Assembly: GCA_020027965.1 (NCBI GenBank)
Contig: JAHRHE010000018.1
Coordinates: 1-36,712, forward strand
Length of the DNA stretch: 36,712 nt
From: Nitrospirota bacterium
GTDB lineage: Bacteria > Nitrospirota > Nitrospiria > Nitrospirales > Nitrospiraceae
Direction of reading: 5' to 3'
The notes under the pieces are model-generated. The model worked only from the letters and a program-made list of their open reading frames with translations. It was not told where the DNA came from and ran no database searches. Position 1 is the first letter of the stretch. Every line of letters starts with the position of its first letter. Below, one piece after another: positions 30,083-36,712 of this stretch. The translations under genes were made by a program, and so were the position numbers.

Positions 30083-30113
30083 CTACCGCTCTCTCTAGGA
30101 GGTGGGGCCGACC

Positions 30114-31547
30114 ATGAAAACTGATCAGGAAGTGGAACTCACGCGATTCGGCGTGACCGAACTCGAAGTGCGCAGAACGTTGGGGAAAGTCAAAGTTCCC
30201 AGCGTGGACTACGCGGATCTCTACTTCGAATCCGTGGCGTCCGAATCGGTCTCGATGGAAGAGGGCCTCGTCAAGCGCGCCACCAAGAGCGTCTCGCAAG
30301 GGGTCGGCGTGCGGGCCACGGCCGGCGAGAAAACCGGTTTTGCGTACTCGGATGAAGTGACCCGGCAGGACCTCGAGATCGCAGCGGAGACCGCCCGCTA
30401 TATTGCCAATGCTCCGCAGGGCGATCATCCGGTCCCGGCGACCCATCGGACGAAGCCGAGCCGAAATCTCTATCCGGCCGAGACATCCATCGCGGAGGTT
30501 GCGACCAGGGACAGGATCGAGCTGCTGAATCTGATCGATGCCGAGGCGCGGCGGTACGATCCTCGGATCAAGAACGTCATGGCCTCCTTCAACACCGAGT
30601 ACAAGATCGTCGCAGTGGCCACGTCCGAGGGCCTGCTCGTGGGCGATATTCAGCCCCTCTCCCGCTTGCAAGTAACCTGCATCGCGGAGGAAGGCGCCAA
30701 CCGCCAAATCGGCACCTTCGGCGGCGGCGGCCGCGCCGGGTTCGAGTTCTATCGCGACCAGGACCGGTACCTGCGTTACGCCAGAGAGGCGGCTAGGCAA
30801 GCTATCCTGAACCTGAGCGCCGTGGACGCTCCGGCGGGGGTCATGCCGGTGGTGCTGGGCGCGGGCTGGCCAGGCATCCTCCTGCACGAGGCCATCGGGC
30901 ACGGTCTGGAGGCGGACTTTAACCGGCGCAAGACCTCGGCCTTCACCAGCCTGATGGGGCGACTGGTCGCCTCGGAGGTCTGCACGATCGTGGATGACGG
31001 GACCATCCCGTTCCGGCGCGGCTCGCTCAACATGGACGATGAAGGCACGCCCACCAGCCGGACCGTGCTGATCGAGCGCGGGATTCTGAAGGGATACATC
31101 ACCGACCGCCTCAATGCGCGGCTGATGGGGATTCCGCTGACCGGCAACGGCCGCCGCGAAAGTTTCCAATGCATCCCGCTCCCGCGCATGACGAACACGT
31201 TCATGCTCGCCGGAGAATCGGATCCGGAGGACATCATCCGCTCGGTGAAACGGGGGTTGTACGCGGTTTCTTTCGGAGGCGGGCAGGTGGACATCACCAA
31301 CGGCAAATTCGTGTTTTCGGCCAGCGAAGCCTATCTGATCGAGGATGGCAAGGTGACGCGTCCGGTCAAGGGGGCCACCTTGATCGGGAGCGGACCGGAG
31401 ATCCTCACGCGCGTTTCGATGGTGGGCCACGATCTCAAGCTGGATGAGGGAATCGGCACCTGCGGAAAAGACGGGCAGTCGGTGCCGGTCGGCGTCGGTC
31501 TTCCCACGATTCGCGTCGACGAGATCACAGTCGGCGGTACGGCCTAA
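30114..31547 (+). CDS. tldD: TldD zinc metalloprotease subunit
   Basis: The 477-residue protein is the catalytic partner of the TldD/TldE (PmbA) heterodimer, which degrades unfolded peptides and matures some modified peptides (microcin B17) or helps in CcdA turnover. The active site is His258-Glu259-x3-His262 in LHEAIGHGLEADFNRRKTSA. Other family sections are MPVVLGAGWPGILLHEAIGH, VVDDGT-like CTIVDDGTIPFRRGSLNMDD and the C-terminal ESDPEDIIRSVKRGLYAVSF. ATG 30114 is preferred with AGGAGG at 30097-30102; an in-frame GTG lies at 30102. It is followed by pmbA on the same strand after heptad array 3. Confidence 0.96.
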   Translation: MKTDQEVELTRFGVTELEVRRTLGKVKVPSVDYADLYFESVASESVSMEEGLVKRATKSVSQGVGVRATAGEKTGFAYSDEVTRQDLEIAAETARYIANAPQGDHPVPATHRTKPSRNLYPAETSIAEVATRDRIELLNLIDAEARRYDPRIKNVMASFNTEYKIVAVATSEGLLVGDIQPLSRLQVTCIAEEGANRQIGTFGGGGRAGFEFYRDQDRYLRYAREAARQAILNLSAVDAPAGVMPVVLGAGWPGILLHEAIGHGLEADFNRRKTSAFTSLMGRLVASEVCTIVDDGTIPFRRGSLNMDDEGTPTSRTVLIERGILKGYITDRLNARLMGIPLTGNGRRESFQCIPLPRMTNTFMLAGESDPEDIIRSVKRGLYAVSFGGGQVDITNGKFVFSASEAYLIEDGKVTRPVKGATLIGSGPEILTRVSMVGHDLKLDEGIGTCGKDGQSVPVGVGLPTIRVDEITVGGTA

Positions 31548-31555
31548 GCCAGGGC

Positions 31556-31668
31556 GTGATTCGTCATCCGTCACTCGTCACTCGCGGCAAGAGGGCGAGC
31601 AAAACGGAGATGAGCTTCTCTTTCCTCACGAATGACGAATGACGGGTGACGAATGACGAGTAACGACT
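31556..31668. repeat. Heptad inverted array 3 (tldD-pmbA spacer)
   Basis: Left arm: GTGATTC, GTCATCC, GTCACTC, GTCACTC (31556-31583). Right arm: CACGAAT, GACGAAT, GACGGGT, GACGAAT, GACGAGT, AACGACT (31627-31668). Aligned, 23 of 26 bases pair. The array begins 8 bp after the tldD stop codon. The pmbA start codon (31653-31655) and first codons are inside the right arm. Confidence 0.9.
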
Positions 31669-33005
31669 TCAAAGAGCTGGCGGGCGATCTGCTCGCTCAG
31701 GTGAAAAGGAAAGGGGCGACCGAGGCGGAAGTCATAGTCGCCGATGGGCACACCTTTTCGGTGCAGGTGCGTCTGGGCGAGGTGGACCGACTGACCAAGG
31801 CTCGGGAGAAGCGGCTGGGCCTGCGCGTGTTCTTCGGAAAGCGGTCCGCCAGCGCGTCCACGTCGGATTTCACGAAAGAGGCCCTCGAGTCTCTGGTGTC
31901 CGACACCTGCACCTTGGCGCGCGCGGTGGTCGAGGACCCGACCTCCGGCTTACCGGCTGGAGACCTGATGGCCACAGATCTGCCGGATCTCGATCTCTAT
32001 GATCCGACGGAGCTGGACACCGAAACCCAGATCGAGCTGGCTCGACGGACCGAGGCGGCGGCGATGGCGGCAGATCCCAGGATTACCAACTCCGAGGGGG
32101 CCGACTTCGACTCCTCTGCCGGGAGATTCGTGCTGTGTAACAGCCTGGGGTTTGTCGGGGAGCAGCGCAGTTCCAGTTTCTCGGTGTCGGTGTCGCCGAT
32201 CGCGATTGAACCGGGCAATGGCGGCATGCAACGGGATTCCTGGTATGCCGTCCAGCGCAAGTTCGCGCGGCTGGACAGCCCGGAATCGGTGGGCCGGGAA
32301 GCCGCGCGACGAACCGTGCGCCGTCTGGGGGCGCGCAAAGTCTCCACCCGGCGTGCGCCCGTGATTTTCGACCAGGAGACGGCCGGCAGTCTGCTCGGCC
32401 ATCTCTGCAGCGCCGCATCCGGCTACGCCCTGTACAAAGGCGCCTCTTTCCTCATCGGACAACTGGGCAAACGGCTGGCGCCGGACTTCGTGACCATTTA
32501 TGACGATGGGCGGCGACCAGGGGGACTTGGCTCGAGACCCTTCGATGGCGAGGGTCTGTCCTCCAGAAAGACCACCGTGGTGGACCGCGGGGTGCTGGCC
32601 AGTTATCTGCTCGACACCTATTCCGGTCGGAAGCTGGGTCTGGCTTCGACCGGGAATGCCTCGCGCGGGGTGGGGGACAGCCCGTCGGTGGGACCGACCA
32701 ACTTTTACCTGATGCCCGGCTCCACCGAGCCGGCTGACATCATCAGGTCGGTCAAGGAAGGCCTGTATGTGACTGAGCTGATCGGATTCGGTGTGAATAT
32801 GGTCACGGGGGACTACTCTCGCGGAGCGGCCGGACTCTGGATCGAGAACGGCGAGCTGGCCTATCCTGTGGAGGAGATCACCATCGCGGGTAACCTCAAG
32901 GAGATGTTCGCCGGCATCGAAGTCATCGGGAACGATCTGGAATTTCGAGGCCGCATCGCCAGCCCGACGATCAAGCTCCGCGAGATGACGATCGCCGGAA
33001 ACTAG
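31653..33005 (+). CDS. pmbA: TldE/PmbA metalloprotease partner
   Basis: The 450-residue non-catalytic partner of TldD lacks the HExxxH motif, as is usual. Family traits are an N-terminal FKELAGDLLAQVKRKGATEA, VIVADGHTFSVQVRLGEVDR, the central NSEGADFDSSAGRFVLCNS and a late VGPTNFYLMPGSTEPADIIR. The ATG lies inside heptad array 3 (right arm), and the first six codons (M-T-S-N-D-F) come from that array; no clear Shine-Dalgarno is present. No other start upstream or nearby is plausible. It pairs with tldD just upstream. Confidence 0.96.
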   Translation: MTSNDFKELAGDLLAQVKRKGATEAEVIVADGHTFSVQVRLGEVDRLTKAREKRLGLRVFFGKRSASASTSDFTKEALESLVSDTCTLARAVVEDPTSGLPAGDLMATDLPDLDLYDPTELDTETQIELARRTEAAAMAADPRITNSEGADFDSSAGRFVLCNSLGFVGEQRSSSFSVSVSPIAIEPGNGGMQRDSWYAVQRKFARLDSPESVGREAARRTVRRLGARKVSTRRAPVIFDQETAGSLLGHLCSAASGYALYKGASFLIGQLGKRLAPDFVTIYDDGRRPGGLGSRPFDGEGLSSRKTTVVDRGVLASYLLDTYSGRKLGLASTGNASRGVGDSPSVGPTNFYLMPGSTEPADIIRSVKEGLYVTELIGFGVNMVTGDYSRGAAGLWIENGELAYPVEEITIAGNLKEMFAGIEVIGNDLEFRGRIASPTIKLREMTIAGN

Positions 33006-34693: not shown

Positions 34694-36220
34694 TTAACGC
34701 TTCAGATCGATCAGGTGGAGTTTTGCCCGCTCGCCCAGGAGATCGGTGCCCGGGAGGAGCTGAGGCGATTGCTCGGCATTCGCCCGCCTGGCCGCGGTCT
34801 CAACCTGCGGCTTGAGGTAGTCGTACAACTCCTCCACGTCCACCGCGCCATCCTTGTTGGCGTCGGCCTCTCCCTGCAACCCTTTCAGGAAATAATAGGT
34901 GAAGAGCCCGTGACGCTTCTCTGGGAACGCGGAGCTAATTTGATTCCCGGCTGCCGCTGACAGCACGACCATATTTTGGCTGGCCAGTAGTGGGTTCTCG
35001 ATCGTGACCAGCATCGGCCGCGTTCCCTTGGCAATGACCGACCGGCCCCCGGTGCCGGAGAAGCAGGAGTCCATCACGACCGTCACCTGGGCAGCGGGGA
35101 GATCGCCGAGCACTTTGTAGAGCTGCGTCAGTGGGTAGCCGGTTTCCTCGAGAAAGGCCGGGTCGCCATCGTAGGGGACCAGGAAGGCCTGGTTGGTGTT
35201 CGGATCAGGGGCGCCGTGGCCGCCGTAATAGACGAACACTTCCGACTCCTTGTGATCTGCGACCTGCTTCTGGAGCCATTTCTCAAATCGCGCGCCGAGC
35301 TGGCTGCGGGTCGCGCGCTCGTTGAGCAACATCACGACGTTCTGCTCACGATAGCCCAGCGCCTTGGTCAGGTACTGCTTGACCATCTCCGCATCCCGCT
35401 TCGCATAGTCCACCTTGGGCAAGTCGCGATAGTCCTCGATCCCCACGATCACGGCGTACGCGTGGTCTTTCGGCGCGACCTTCGTGGCCGGGGGCGCCAG
35501 CTCGGCGTCGAGCTTGGCGAGTTCGGCTCCGCCGAAAAGGGTCGAGGTGATACCACCGATCCGGCCCATTCCTGGCCCCCGCAAGCTCGCGAGATAATCG
35601 GTCTGGAGGTGATCAACGAGAGGGGGCAAGAGCCCGGCCGTGGCTGATGGGACGACGACGTATCGGACGATGGAGTCCAGCGACGCCTTCCGCCGGACGC
35701 TTGAGCCATCCTTTGCCACGGTCACCTTGTGGGTCTTCTTCCAGACCTGAGCGCCGGTGGAAACGTTGTAGAGCTGGAGCTGGAGGTGCATGGTCACCTC
35801 GTACCTGGACCCGAAGAGCGCGACCGGCACGTCGGCTTCGAATTCCTTCACGTCACCAACCAGCAGGAGATCGGCCTGCTGCTTTCGGGCGGCGGCCAGG
35901 ATCTGTTCCGAATCCGCCGGCTTGCCCGCCTGATGAGGCACGTTCAGAGGGACCACATCCTTCAAGGTGTGGGTGCGGAGCAGCGTGTCCCGCAAGGTGT
36001 GCTGAATGGCGGCCTCCAGGTTCTCGTCGAGCGGCTCGCCGTCGTAGGTGACCTTAGCTGTGTCGACCGGTCCGATCGCGAGGACCGTGGGGACTTCCTG
36101 CTCCTGGACCGGAATGCTGAGCGCGTGCGGAGCGATGTCGGGCACGCAGGCGCTGGGCAGCGCGCCGACCACCAACAGGAATCCGAGCGGAATCAATCGG
36201 AGACGGCCGTGAGCGAACAT
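34694..36220 (-). CDS. Caspase-like lipoprotein with EF-hand loop
   Basis: The protein has 508 residues. A lipoprotein signal ends at LPSAC (Cys25). Residues 40-240 form a beta-rich domain with a TolB/CsgG-like feel (VPTVLAIGPVDTAKVTYDGE, AARKQQADLLLVGDVKEFEA, HLQLQLYNVSTGAQVWKKTH). Residues 250-445 are a caspase (peptidase C14) domain with the catalytic His335 in YYGGHG and Cys386 in DSCFSG. A canonical calcium-binding EF-hand loop follows at 453-464 (DANKDGAVDVEE: Asp453, Asn455, Asp457, Asp461, Glu464). An outer-membrane or periplasmic caspase homologue is predicted, perhaps calcium-regulated. GGGAGGG lies before the ATG. It follows a small lipoprotein gene after 25 bp. Confidence 0.9.
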   Translation of the reverse strand: MFAHGRLRLIPLGFLLVVGALPSACVPDIAPHALSIPVQEQEVPTVLAIGPVDTAKVTYDGEPLDENLEAAIQHTLRDTLLRTHTLKDVVPLNVPHQAGKPADSEQILAAARKQQADLLLVGDVKEFEADVPVALFGSRYEVTMHLQLQLYNVSTGAQVWKKTHKVTVAKDGSSVRRKASLDSIVRYVVVPSATAGLLPPLVDHLQTDYLASLRGPGMGRIGGITSTLFGGAELAKLDAELAPPATKVAPKDHAYAVIVGIEDYRDLPKVDYAKRDAEMVKQYLTKALGYREQNVVMLLNERATRSQLGARFEKWLQKQVADHKESEVFVYYGGHGAPDPNTNQAFLVPYDGDPAFLEETGYPLTQLYKVLGDLPAAQVTVVMDSCFSGTGGRSVIAKGTRPMLVTIENPLLASQNMVVLSAAAGNQISSAFPEKRHGLFTYYFLKGLQGEADANKDGAVDVEELYDYLKPQVETAARRANAEQSPQLLPGTDLLGERAKLHLIDLKR

Positions 36221-36245
36221 ACAACCCTCCCGGTGGAGCCTGCCG

Positions 36246-36632
36246 TCATCTGGTAAAATTGACCACCTTCCCGCGCACCTCGATGCAATAGGTCGTCAGC
36301 AGCAAATAGGAGGTGACGGAAGAACTCGACGTAACTTCGATCAAGGCTTCTCCGCCCCTACCTTTGACCATGTCGAAAATCAAGTCGGCCAGCGACATGG
36401 GGTTCTTGACGGGGAGAAACAGCACAATATACCCACAGGAGGAGGCTTCCTCTGCTCCCCCCAGCACGATGTAGTTCCCGGTCGCCGGCATGGTGGACGG
36501 AGCGATCGCTCCAGGGGTCACGCAAGCCGCGGTAAGCCACGCGACCAGCCCGCAGACGGCCCACACGCCGGCGGCCTTCCATCGGCCGACTCCGACTACC
36601 CGCACCCCCGATGCCCGACCGGACGCGTTCAT
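36246..36632 (-). CDS. Small putative lipoprotein, upstream of caspase-like gene
   Basis: The protein has 128 residues from ATG 36632. The N-terminus is basic, then a hydrophobic stretch ending in LTAAC (Cys37), a plausible lipobox. The mature part has a conserved-looking NYIVLGGAEEASSCGYIVLF, LPVKNPMSLADLIFDMVKG, then GGEALIEVTSSSSV. I have seen similar small lipoproteins of the SCGY...ADL...GA-ALI type but know of no function. An in-frame TTG at 36671 would extend it by 13 residues; no ribosome site decides the start. With only 25 bp to the caspase-like gene, the two form an operon. Confidence 0.65.
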   Translation of the reverse strand: MNASGRASGVRVVGVGRWKAAGVWAVCGLVAWLTAACVTPGAIAPSTMPATGNYIVLGGAEEASSCGYIVLFLPVKNPMSLADLIFDMVKGRGGEALIEVTSSSSVTSYLLLTTYCIEVRGKVVNFTR

Positions 36633-36712
36633 TTGAACTTTTTGACGGCAATCCCGTTGACGACGGTGCAATCTGAAGCCACGATGGGGAGGAAAAATAT
36701 CGATCTCCGATG

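Follow-up and report, generated by a model that had tools for sequence, protein, structure and literature searches.

Gene layout at the locus

The window, i.e., the whole stretch of DNA that was analysed, covers positions 1-36,712 (36,712 nucleotides) of contig JAHRHE010000018.1 from Nitrospirota bacterium GCA_020027965.1, a relative of Nitrospira. At its end, on the minus strand, lie the gene of a caspase-like lipoprotein (P0001) and that of a small lipoprotein (lipo1, P0002), followed by the 3′ end of a second small lipoprotein gene (lipo2). The original prediction, which was made from the window alone, had described the first two genes as an operon; both open reading frames (ORFs) are present as it said and their pairing is genuine, but the third gene, which lies mostly off the window contig, was missed. 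Indeed, the 99 bases at window positions 36614-36712 recur exactly as bases 1-99 of C154, another contig of this assembly, and the simplest reading, which agrees with the gene order of 11 other genomes, is that both contigs most likely lie next to each other.

Counts over the three genes (the triad) rest on 12 genomes, own genome included, each counted once. For comparison with other caspases, 40 paralogue loci were hand-picked, not at random, among the best matches listed to the window protein; they gave 53 paralogue ORFs (several per genome, with ORFs of 100 bits or less left out, and including three distant ones, L170_2385, L172_2235 and L173_6628). A wider set of 73 ORFs came from loci L086 and later, some of which hold more than one ORF. 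The features are as follows (positions in the window unless stated otherwise).

34694..36220, minus strand: caspase-like lipoprotein gene P0001, 508 amino acids (ORF; Peptidase_C14 match)
34697..35479, minus strand: caspase domain, residues 248-508 (Pfam, model and structural matches)
34829..34864, minus strand: EF-hand-like loop D453-E464, inside the caspase domain (sequence pattern, model)
34997..35059, minus strand: loop 388-408 after the catalytic Cys (predicted local distance difference test score, pLDDT, under 50; R393, G399 and R401 invariant)
35063..35065, minus strand: codon of catalytic C386 (invariant in 12/12 orthologues; C in 52/53 paralogue ORFs)
35216..35218, minus strand: codon of catalytic H335 (invariant in 12/12 orthologues; H in 52/53 paralogue ORFs)
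35579..36103, minus strand: N-terminal alpha/beta domain, residues 40-214, weakly LpoB/TolB_N/LptE-like (weak Pfam matches; secondary structure of the model)
36146..36220, minus strand: signal peptide and lipobox of the caspase protein, LPSA up to the presumed lipidated C25 (C25 invariant in 12/12 orthologues)
36246..36632, minus strand: small lipoprotein 1 (lipo1, P0002), 128 amino acids (ORF; lipobox LTAA before the presumed lipid Cys C37)
36629..36632, minus strand: ATGA overlap of the lipo2 stop and the lipo1 start (read from the sequence)
36629..36712, minus strand: 3′ end of the lipo2 gene (99-base contig overlap; homologue in 12/12 triads)
Contig C154, locus L062, 16 to about 375, minus strand: remainder of lipo2 (read from C154)

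A 4-base overlap of lipo2 and lipo1 was found at 11 of the 12 loci, given the start codons that were chosen (TTG at three loci), and profile comparison shows the two proteins to be homologues of one another (probability 99.6). A lipobox marks the end of a signal peptide and ends at the cysteine that becomes lipidated. Lipidation is predicted only, with the presumed lipid Cys invariant in 12/12 sequences of each protein (caspase C25, lipo1 C37 and lipo2 C24). In Escherichia coli, lipoprotein sorting depends on whether Asp stands at position +2, and this residue is absent from all 36 sequences (12 caspase, 12 lipo1 and 12 lipo2), which suggests that the three proteins would be anchored in the outer membrane. 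Upstream of lipo2, on C154, lies a uracil-DNA glycosylase (UDG) gene; the own-genome neighbours of the operon are TldD/PmbA, DLH and UDG genes. Note that two PmbA/TldD metalloprotease genes lie near the operon, at window positions 30102-33005, with homologues in most loci of the window's family.

Conservation of the three genes

The caspase-protein search covered 147 relatives and the lipoprotein-profile search 395 genomes of the phylum; in both, at most about 10 or 11 candidates were scored per genome and the matches are those listed. Caspase relatives at E up to 1e-10 were found in 133/147 genomes and a full-length orthologue in 12/147, the 11 orthologues other than the window protein showing 45% identity or more to it. 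Each of these 12 genomes has the order lipo2-lipo1-caspase; 11 of them have it on a single contig, while the own-genome triad spans the 99-base contig overlap. An accidental pairing was therefore rejected, and the search for conserved gene pairing in other Nitrospirota, which the original prediction had proposed as its check, found the pairing kept and not lost. Nine orthologues belong to the window's family and three to another family of the same order; the loci of these three have no neighbour beyond the triad in common with the rest (8.6-16.6 kb stretches compared). Upstream of one triad (L072:3576-6976), genes for a TIR-domain protein and a TPR protein were observed, with homologues in L070 and L071 of the same genus.

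Beyond these 12 genomes, the lipoprotein profile listed one further tandem lipoprotein pair among the 395 phylum genomes (G437), adjoined by caspase pieces at the edge of a 6-kb contig that is interrupted by N. Its threshold did not list the divergent pair of genome G009 described below, and further divergent pairs may be missed. In genome G023, only the C-terminal caspase part is kept (L086:6004-6624), next to a gene recognised by eye as nucleoside diphosphate kinase; the N-terminal half and the adjacent lipoprotein pair are both gone, and a related lipoprotein gene is kept elsewhere in that genome. Other loci of Nitrospira-type genomes (L044-L061, from g18 and other genera) also encode relatives of the small lipoproteins, in which the two conserved Cys are kept.

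These observations bear on the possibility that three unrelated envelope lipoproteins merely share a promoter, with no physical or functional link. Such an arrangement would be in line with the small lipoproteins occurring alone too and with the two distant full-length relatives (L087 and L088, see below) that lack the pair on their short contigs. However, the triad order is the same in two families whose other neighbouring genes differ, the N-terminal half of the caspase and the lipoprotein pair are jointly absent in G023, and another branch of caspases (G009) comes with a pair of related lipoproteins. We thus regard the absence of any link as quite unlikely.

Over five close pairs, the ratio of nonsynonymous to synonymous substitution rates (dN/dS) ranged from 0.03-0.10 in the caspase domain to 0.06-0.21 in the N-terminal half; in the small lipoproteins it was 0.15-0.31 (four computable pairs). 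These values indicate purifying selection, and the low ones of the caspase domain argue that the gene is not a chance ORF. The faster evolution of the lipoproteins, together with their co-conservation and tight gene coupling, would also suit a different role for them, namely that they are substrates of the protease, released or processed in the periplasm. Against this, their invariant residues (two Cys and the GxxAL core) look structural, lipoprotein relatives stand at other loci in 40/147 genomes, triad genomes included, and no caspase was found over 14-17 kb at the two such loci that were checked (L074 and L075). A role as substrates hence appears unlikely to us, if worth keeping in mind.

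Caspase domain and catalytic residues

By its domain score, its dyad and its fold, P0001 is a member of the C14 protease family. Peptidase_C14 matches residues 255-488 with an E-value of 8.8e-16 (58.7 bits for a cut-off of 21.4), and it was matched at E up to 0.1 by 12/12 orthologues. Note that the first-pass PF00656 search of the own genome lists contig C34 only, while the window gene stands above the cut-off by hmmscan. The caspase model NF047832 (EACC1-associated type) gave 97.8 bits, below its curated cut-off of 140. The intact His335 and Cys386 reported by the original prediction were confirmed, with exact positions and invariance in all 12 orthologues. In addition, D276 and D384 are invariant in 12/12 orthologues and present in 53/53 paralogue ORFs. 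In a trypanosome metacaspase, two aspartates (TbMC2 Asp95/Asp211) hold the basic P1 residue, as given in the available text of PMC6426788; by sequence comparison, D276/D384 would be their equivalents and are presumed to be the S1 residues, and we infer that proteolysis would occur after Arg or Lys. The poorly modelled loop 388-408, which follows the catalytic Cys, is a possible candidate for a processing loop.

The model of the whole protein has a mean pLDDT of 78. The structural alignments cover residues 248-508 only, so that the fold of the N-terminal domain was barely probed. The best matches were metacaspase-4 (Z 24.6, root-mean-square deviation (rmsd) 3.4, 230 aligned residues), metacaspase-9 (Z 23.3, rmsd 2.3, 215 aligned), MALT1 (Z 22.0, rmsd 3.1, 217 aligned) and the Geobacter protein 3bij (Z 21.8, rmsd 2.8, 212 aligned). 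The match to caspase-like chains extends as far as residue 508 of the model, so that a small-subunit-like half appears to be present in the predicted fold.

Could the domain be a non-proteolytic scaffold or binding module that keeps the fold only? Pseudo-orthocaspases are common in bacteria (PMC6426788) and 43% of the Nitrospirae homologues are without the dyad (PMC3501461), as far as the available text of both sources goes. However, H335 and C386 are invariant in 12/12 orthologues, the dyad residues occur in 52/53 paralogue ORFs, and the presumed S1 aspartates are kept, which makes a scaffold highly improbable for the triad caspases. Among the 53 ORFs, the dyad positions hold Q in one and G in one. 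A caspase relative of genome G023 (L192:7001-8788) was seen without the GHG and DSCFSG motifs and is likely a pseudo-enzyme.

Another possibility is that the operon forms a cell-death or defence module acting from the envelope. It finds some footing in the PADLOC caspase model, which matches P0001 at 2.6e-18, and in the TIR and TPR genes upstream of the L072 triad, with homologues in both other loci of the genus. But the PADLOC match reflects a generic caspase domain, the predicted signal peptides put the parts of the system outside the cytoplasm, and the own-genome neighbours are the TldD/PmbA, DLH and UDG genes; moreover, a tblastn search of viral contigs gave no relative. The caspase-type defence systems known to us act in the cytoplasm. 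Altogether, a defence function seems improbable here.

A viral origin was considered separately and rejected on the same tblastn search; when a viral fold library was searched, the C14 domain found giant-virus caspases.

EF-hand-like loop and calcium

The loop residues D453-N455-D457-G458-E464 fit the 12-residue EF-hand pattern and lie between two helices of the model (439-451 and 462-479). D453, D457 and E464 are invariant in 12/12 orthologues, and G458 is replaced by K in three. The Pfam EF-hand models remained below their cut-offs in the window protein (EF-hand_5 with 16.5 bits for 25.9; EF-hand_1 and EF-hand_6 likewise). The loop had been placed just after the peptidase domain; it actually lies inside the C14 match, as a helix-loop-helix in the model.

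The pattern was found in 49/53 paralogue caspase ORFs (from the 40 loci) and in 28/73 wider ORFs, while 26/73 wider ORFs have an intact dyad without it. Therefore, the loop is a feature of the group and the fold can do without it; as a distinguishing feature of the window protein it was rejected. An EF-hand motif was noted in seven archaeal caspase homologues in the available text of PMC6426788. The argument of the original prediction, that metacaspases need calcium and that the loop may thus regulate the enzyme, is weakened. It does not carry over, because orthocaspases with a p20 domain only (without p10) are calcium-independent according to the part of a review that was available (PMC5756287), and because the loop is a group feature. 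Calcium control of the caspase protein is possible.

N-terminal domain

Twelve N-terminal domains (10 from triads and 2 from distant relatives) were scanned with Pfam at E up to 1. LpoB was matched by 9/12 (best 4e-4), LptE by three (1.8e-4), TolB_N by three (6.6e-4), FlgT_M by 3/12 and the unrelated-looking Mannosidase_ig by 3/12. The window domain itself is below all curated Pfam cut-offs (LpoB with 20.7 bits for 22.3). In addition, a weak profile match to 5t10 (E 0.13) and, in the viral fold library, a weak match to a phage CsgG (E 2.8e-4) were obtained. Since most of the matched families are envelope domains, an envelope-type periplasmic class is plausible for this domain. The TolB/CsgG-like N-terminal half proposed earlier is hence weakly supported: TolB_N is found for 3/12 domains, with the window member under the cut-offs.

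Small lipoproteins

Besides the lipid Cys, lipo1 has two invariant cysteines (C66 and C116) and an invariant GxxAL core. Its model has a mean pLDDT of 69, and about 80 over residues 61-128. The closest structures were the DUF74/YbjQ protein 3qkb (Z 7.5, rmsd 3.3, 81 aligned), RcsF 2l8y (Z 6.3, rmsd 2.6, 77 aligned) and the IgaA periplasmic domain 9biy (Z 6.1, rmsd 3.1, 76 aligned), all with Z of 6-7.5, values that can also stem from a common arrangement. RcsF is an outer-membrane stress sensor. When PDB sequences were searched with the profile (E up to 10), a single chain came up, a UPF0145/YbjQ protein (E 1.8), to which the core motif aligns. In the profile comparison with 12 YbjQ sequences, the 19 triad lipoproteins scored 26.0 for a maximum of 16.3 in 200 column shuffles, and 39 family members scored 31.4, where none of 200 column shuffles went beyond 18.0. 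We thus consider YbjQ/RcsF the best-supported fold class of the small lipoproteins, and moderately supported.

At family level, NCBIfam LIC20211 was matched by 19/19 alignment lipoproteins at E up to 0.1 (best 1.9e-7), with the window lipo1 far below the curated cut-off (16.5 for 130 bits). Pfam TRL was matched by 5/19 lipoproteins (best 2e-4), and the TRL profile comparison gave a probability of 26%. A literature search for LIC20211 found no paper.

Lipoprotein caspases in Nitrospirota

The original prediction regarded an envelope caspase as unusual. This was not supported here, the predicted lipoprotein form being common among the paralogues picked: 28/53 paralogue ORFs pass a strict lipobox rule, and a lipobox is visible by eye in about 15 of the other 25. 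Lipidation was consequently rejected as a distinguishing feature of the window protein. Nitrospirae are rich in caspase homologues (1.11 per 1000 proteins) in the accessible part of a 2012 survey (PMC3501461), which also gives N-terminal helices, possible signal peptides, for 46 caspase homologues; Tat-type (twin-arginine translocation) signals were proposed for cyanobacterial pseudo-orthocaspases in the excerpt of PMC6426788. Because it was predicted in these two sources, export of caspases as such is not new. Lipoprotein caspases are not described in the available portions of PMC3501461, PMC6426788 and PMC8195603, and term searches on them were empty for the searchable text of PMC8283722 and PMC4933709. 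Among the matches listed, the literature on periplasmic or lipoprotein caspases and on Nitrospira caspases shows no lipoprotein caspase either, and this literature and that on EF-hand caspases does not describe the operon.

A tree was built from 82 caspase domains (12 triad, 53 paralogue and 17 further ones), with a midpoint root and a long-branch warning; six rows of alignment A4 were left out (L090, L100, L107, L114, L116 and L119). A branch with support 100/98 separates the 12 triad caspases from the other domains. The caspase of genome G009 (L175:8500-10638) falls elsewhere in this tree; it is a lipoprotein with a PEGA domain, and its gene is followed by two overlapping genes for small lipoproteins of the triad lipoprotein family. 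This arrangement may represent a second, independent association of a caspase with such lipoproteins. In the own genome, another lipoprotein caspase was observed on contig C34 (G000:C34, L188:4363-8369); its gene follows that of a DUF4384 protein and precedes two others, one for what looks by eye like an outer-membrane barrel and one for a TRL lipoprotein (Pfam TRL, E 2.9e-26).

Discussion

Our results suggest, tentatively and with a confidence that falls somewhat short of even, that the conserved three-gene envelope operon encodes an outer-membrane-tethered, Arg/Lys-directed protease together with two small regulatory lipoproteins. All three lipoproteins would be exported and sit, by their lipid anchors, on the periplasmic side of the outer membrane, and the LpoB/TolB-like N-terminal domain would place the C-terminal protease in the periplasm. 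The protease may cleave after Arg or Lys, perhaps once its own basic 388-408 loop has been processed. The two lipoproteins with the putative YbjQ/RcsF fold would act as dedicated regulators (sensor, inhibitor or cofactor) and not as substrates; the case for regulators over substrates is a modest one, made on the conserved fold, the constant pairing in the clade and the resemblance to RcsF. The EF-like loop would most likely bind Ca2+ and stabilise the small-subunit half, and not serve as a switch specific to this protein. Note that the anatomy and conservation of the operon, the purifying selection and the intact dyad are read from the sequences, whereas we infer the activity, calcium dependence, location and interaction of the triad proteins.

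Several results weigh against this reading. Two more distant full-length relatives, L087 (Nitrospinota, 39% identity) and L088 (Nitrospira sp., 36%), have no such lipoproteins on their contigs of 5-7 kb, which means that the protease core can exist without them; both caspase genes follow a putative outer-membrane barrel gene (by eye). Among the 40 paralogue loci, lipoproteins of the triad family were found in one (G009) and a TRL lipoprotein in one. The 2012 survey (PMC3501461), as far as its text was available, gives a retained dyad for only 57% of the Nitrospirae caspase homologues, and inactive members thus occur. As for the fold of lipo1, dodecins come next in the structural comparison (Z about 5.5), and Foldseek gave no match for the lipo1 model at E up to 0.001. 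With a single RcsF sequence, the 19-sequence profile scored 11.3, under the 95% point of the shuffles (13.6), and the 39-member profile 17.9, above the 95% point (13.4) and under the maximum (19.7); this sequence test is weak, because even the control comparison of YbjQ with RcsF scores only 19.1. Finally, no sigma-70-like promoter was found upstream of lipo2 in L062 1-700, a result that is uninformative, as 0.2 would be expected by chance.

When compared to known systems, the window protein shares with orthocaspases the C14 domain, the His/Cys dyad, the presumed S1 aspartates and the caspase fold, and exported orthocaspases were predicted earlier. It differs from them as a predicted lipoprotein with an LpoB/TolB-like N-terminal domain, two partner lipoproteins and an EF-like loop in the small-subunit half. 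Metacaspases of type I and II are the best structural matches of the caspase domain, but the sequence identity is 12-19% and the window protein is a bacterial predicted lipoprotein. The predicted lipo1 fold resembles RcsF and YbjQ (UPF0145), and its core motif aligns to the YbjQ profile. Unlike E. coli RcsF with four conserved non-lipid Cys, the small lipoproteins have two, and they belong to a protease operon and not to the Rcs phosphorelay, the sequence similarity to RcsF not being significant. They are also akin to LIC20211/TRL-type lipoproteins by weak family matches, the window member being far under the LIC20211 cut-off. The N-terminal domain resembles the periplasmic LpoB, TolB_N and LptE domains by its weak Pfam matches and differs from them in being fused to a caspase domain. 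As far as the literature was searched, the architecture and the operon are new, while the C14 family itself is known.

A further step, rather doubtful at present, would be a sensor-protease relay, in which the two RcsF-fold lipoproteins sense the state of the envelope and gate the tethered caspase, which would then cut periplasmic or outer-membrane proteins after Arg/Lys. If true, bacteria would have an envelope stress response based on a caspase, on the background of an expansion in Nitrospirota of lipoprotein caspases whose N-terminal domains are exchangeable.

Altogether, many caspase genes of this lineage look like lipoprotein genes, and one branch of them keeps two dedicated small lipoproteins within its operon. 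Caspase-type proteases may thus be able to form part of the bacterial cell envelope, together with partner proteins dedicated to them. If the protease is active, the operon would provide a testable system for the roles of caspase-type enzymes outside the cytoplasm, in which the partner genes would offer a handle on regulation and substrate choice.

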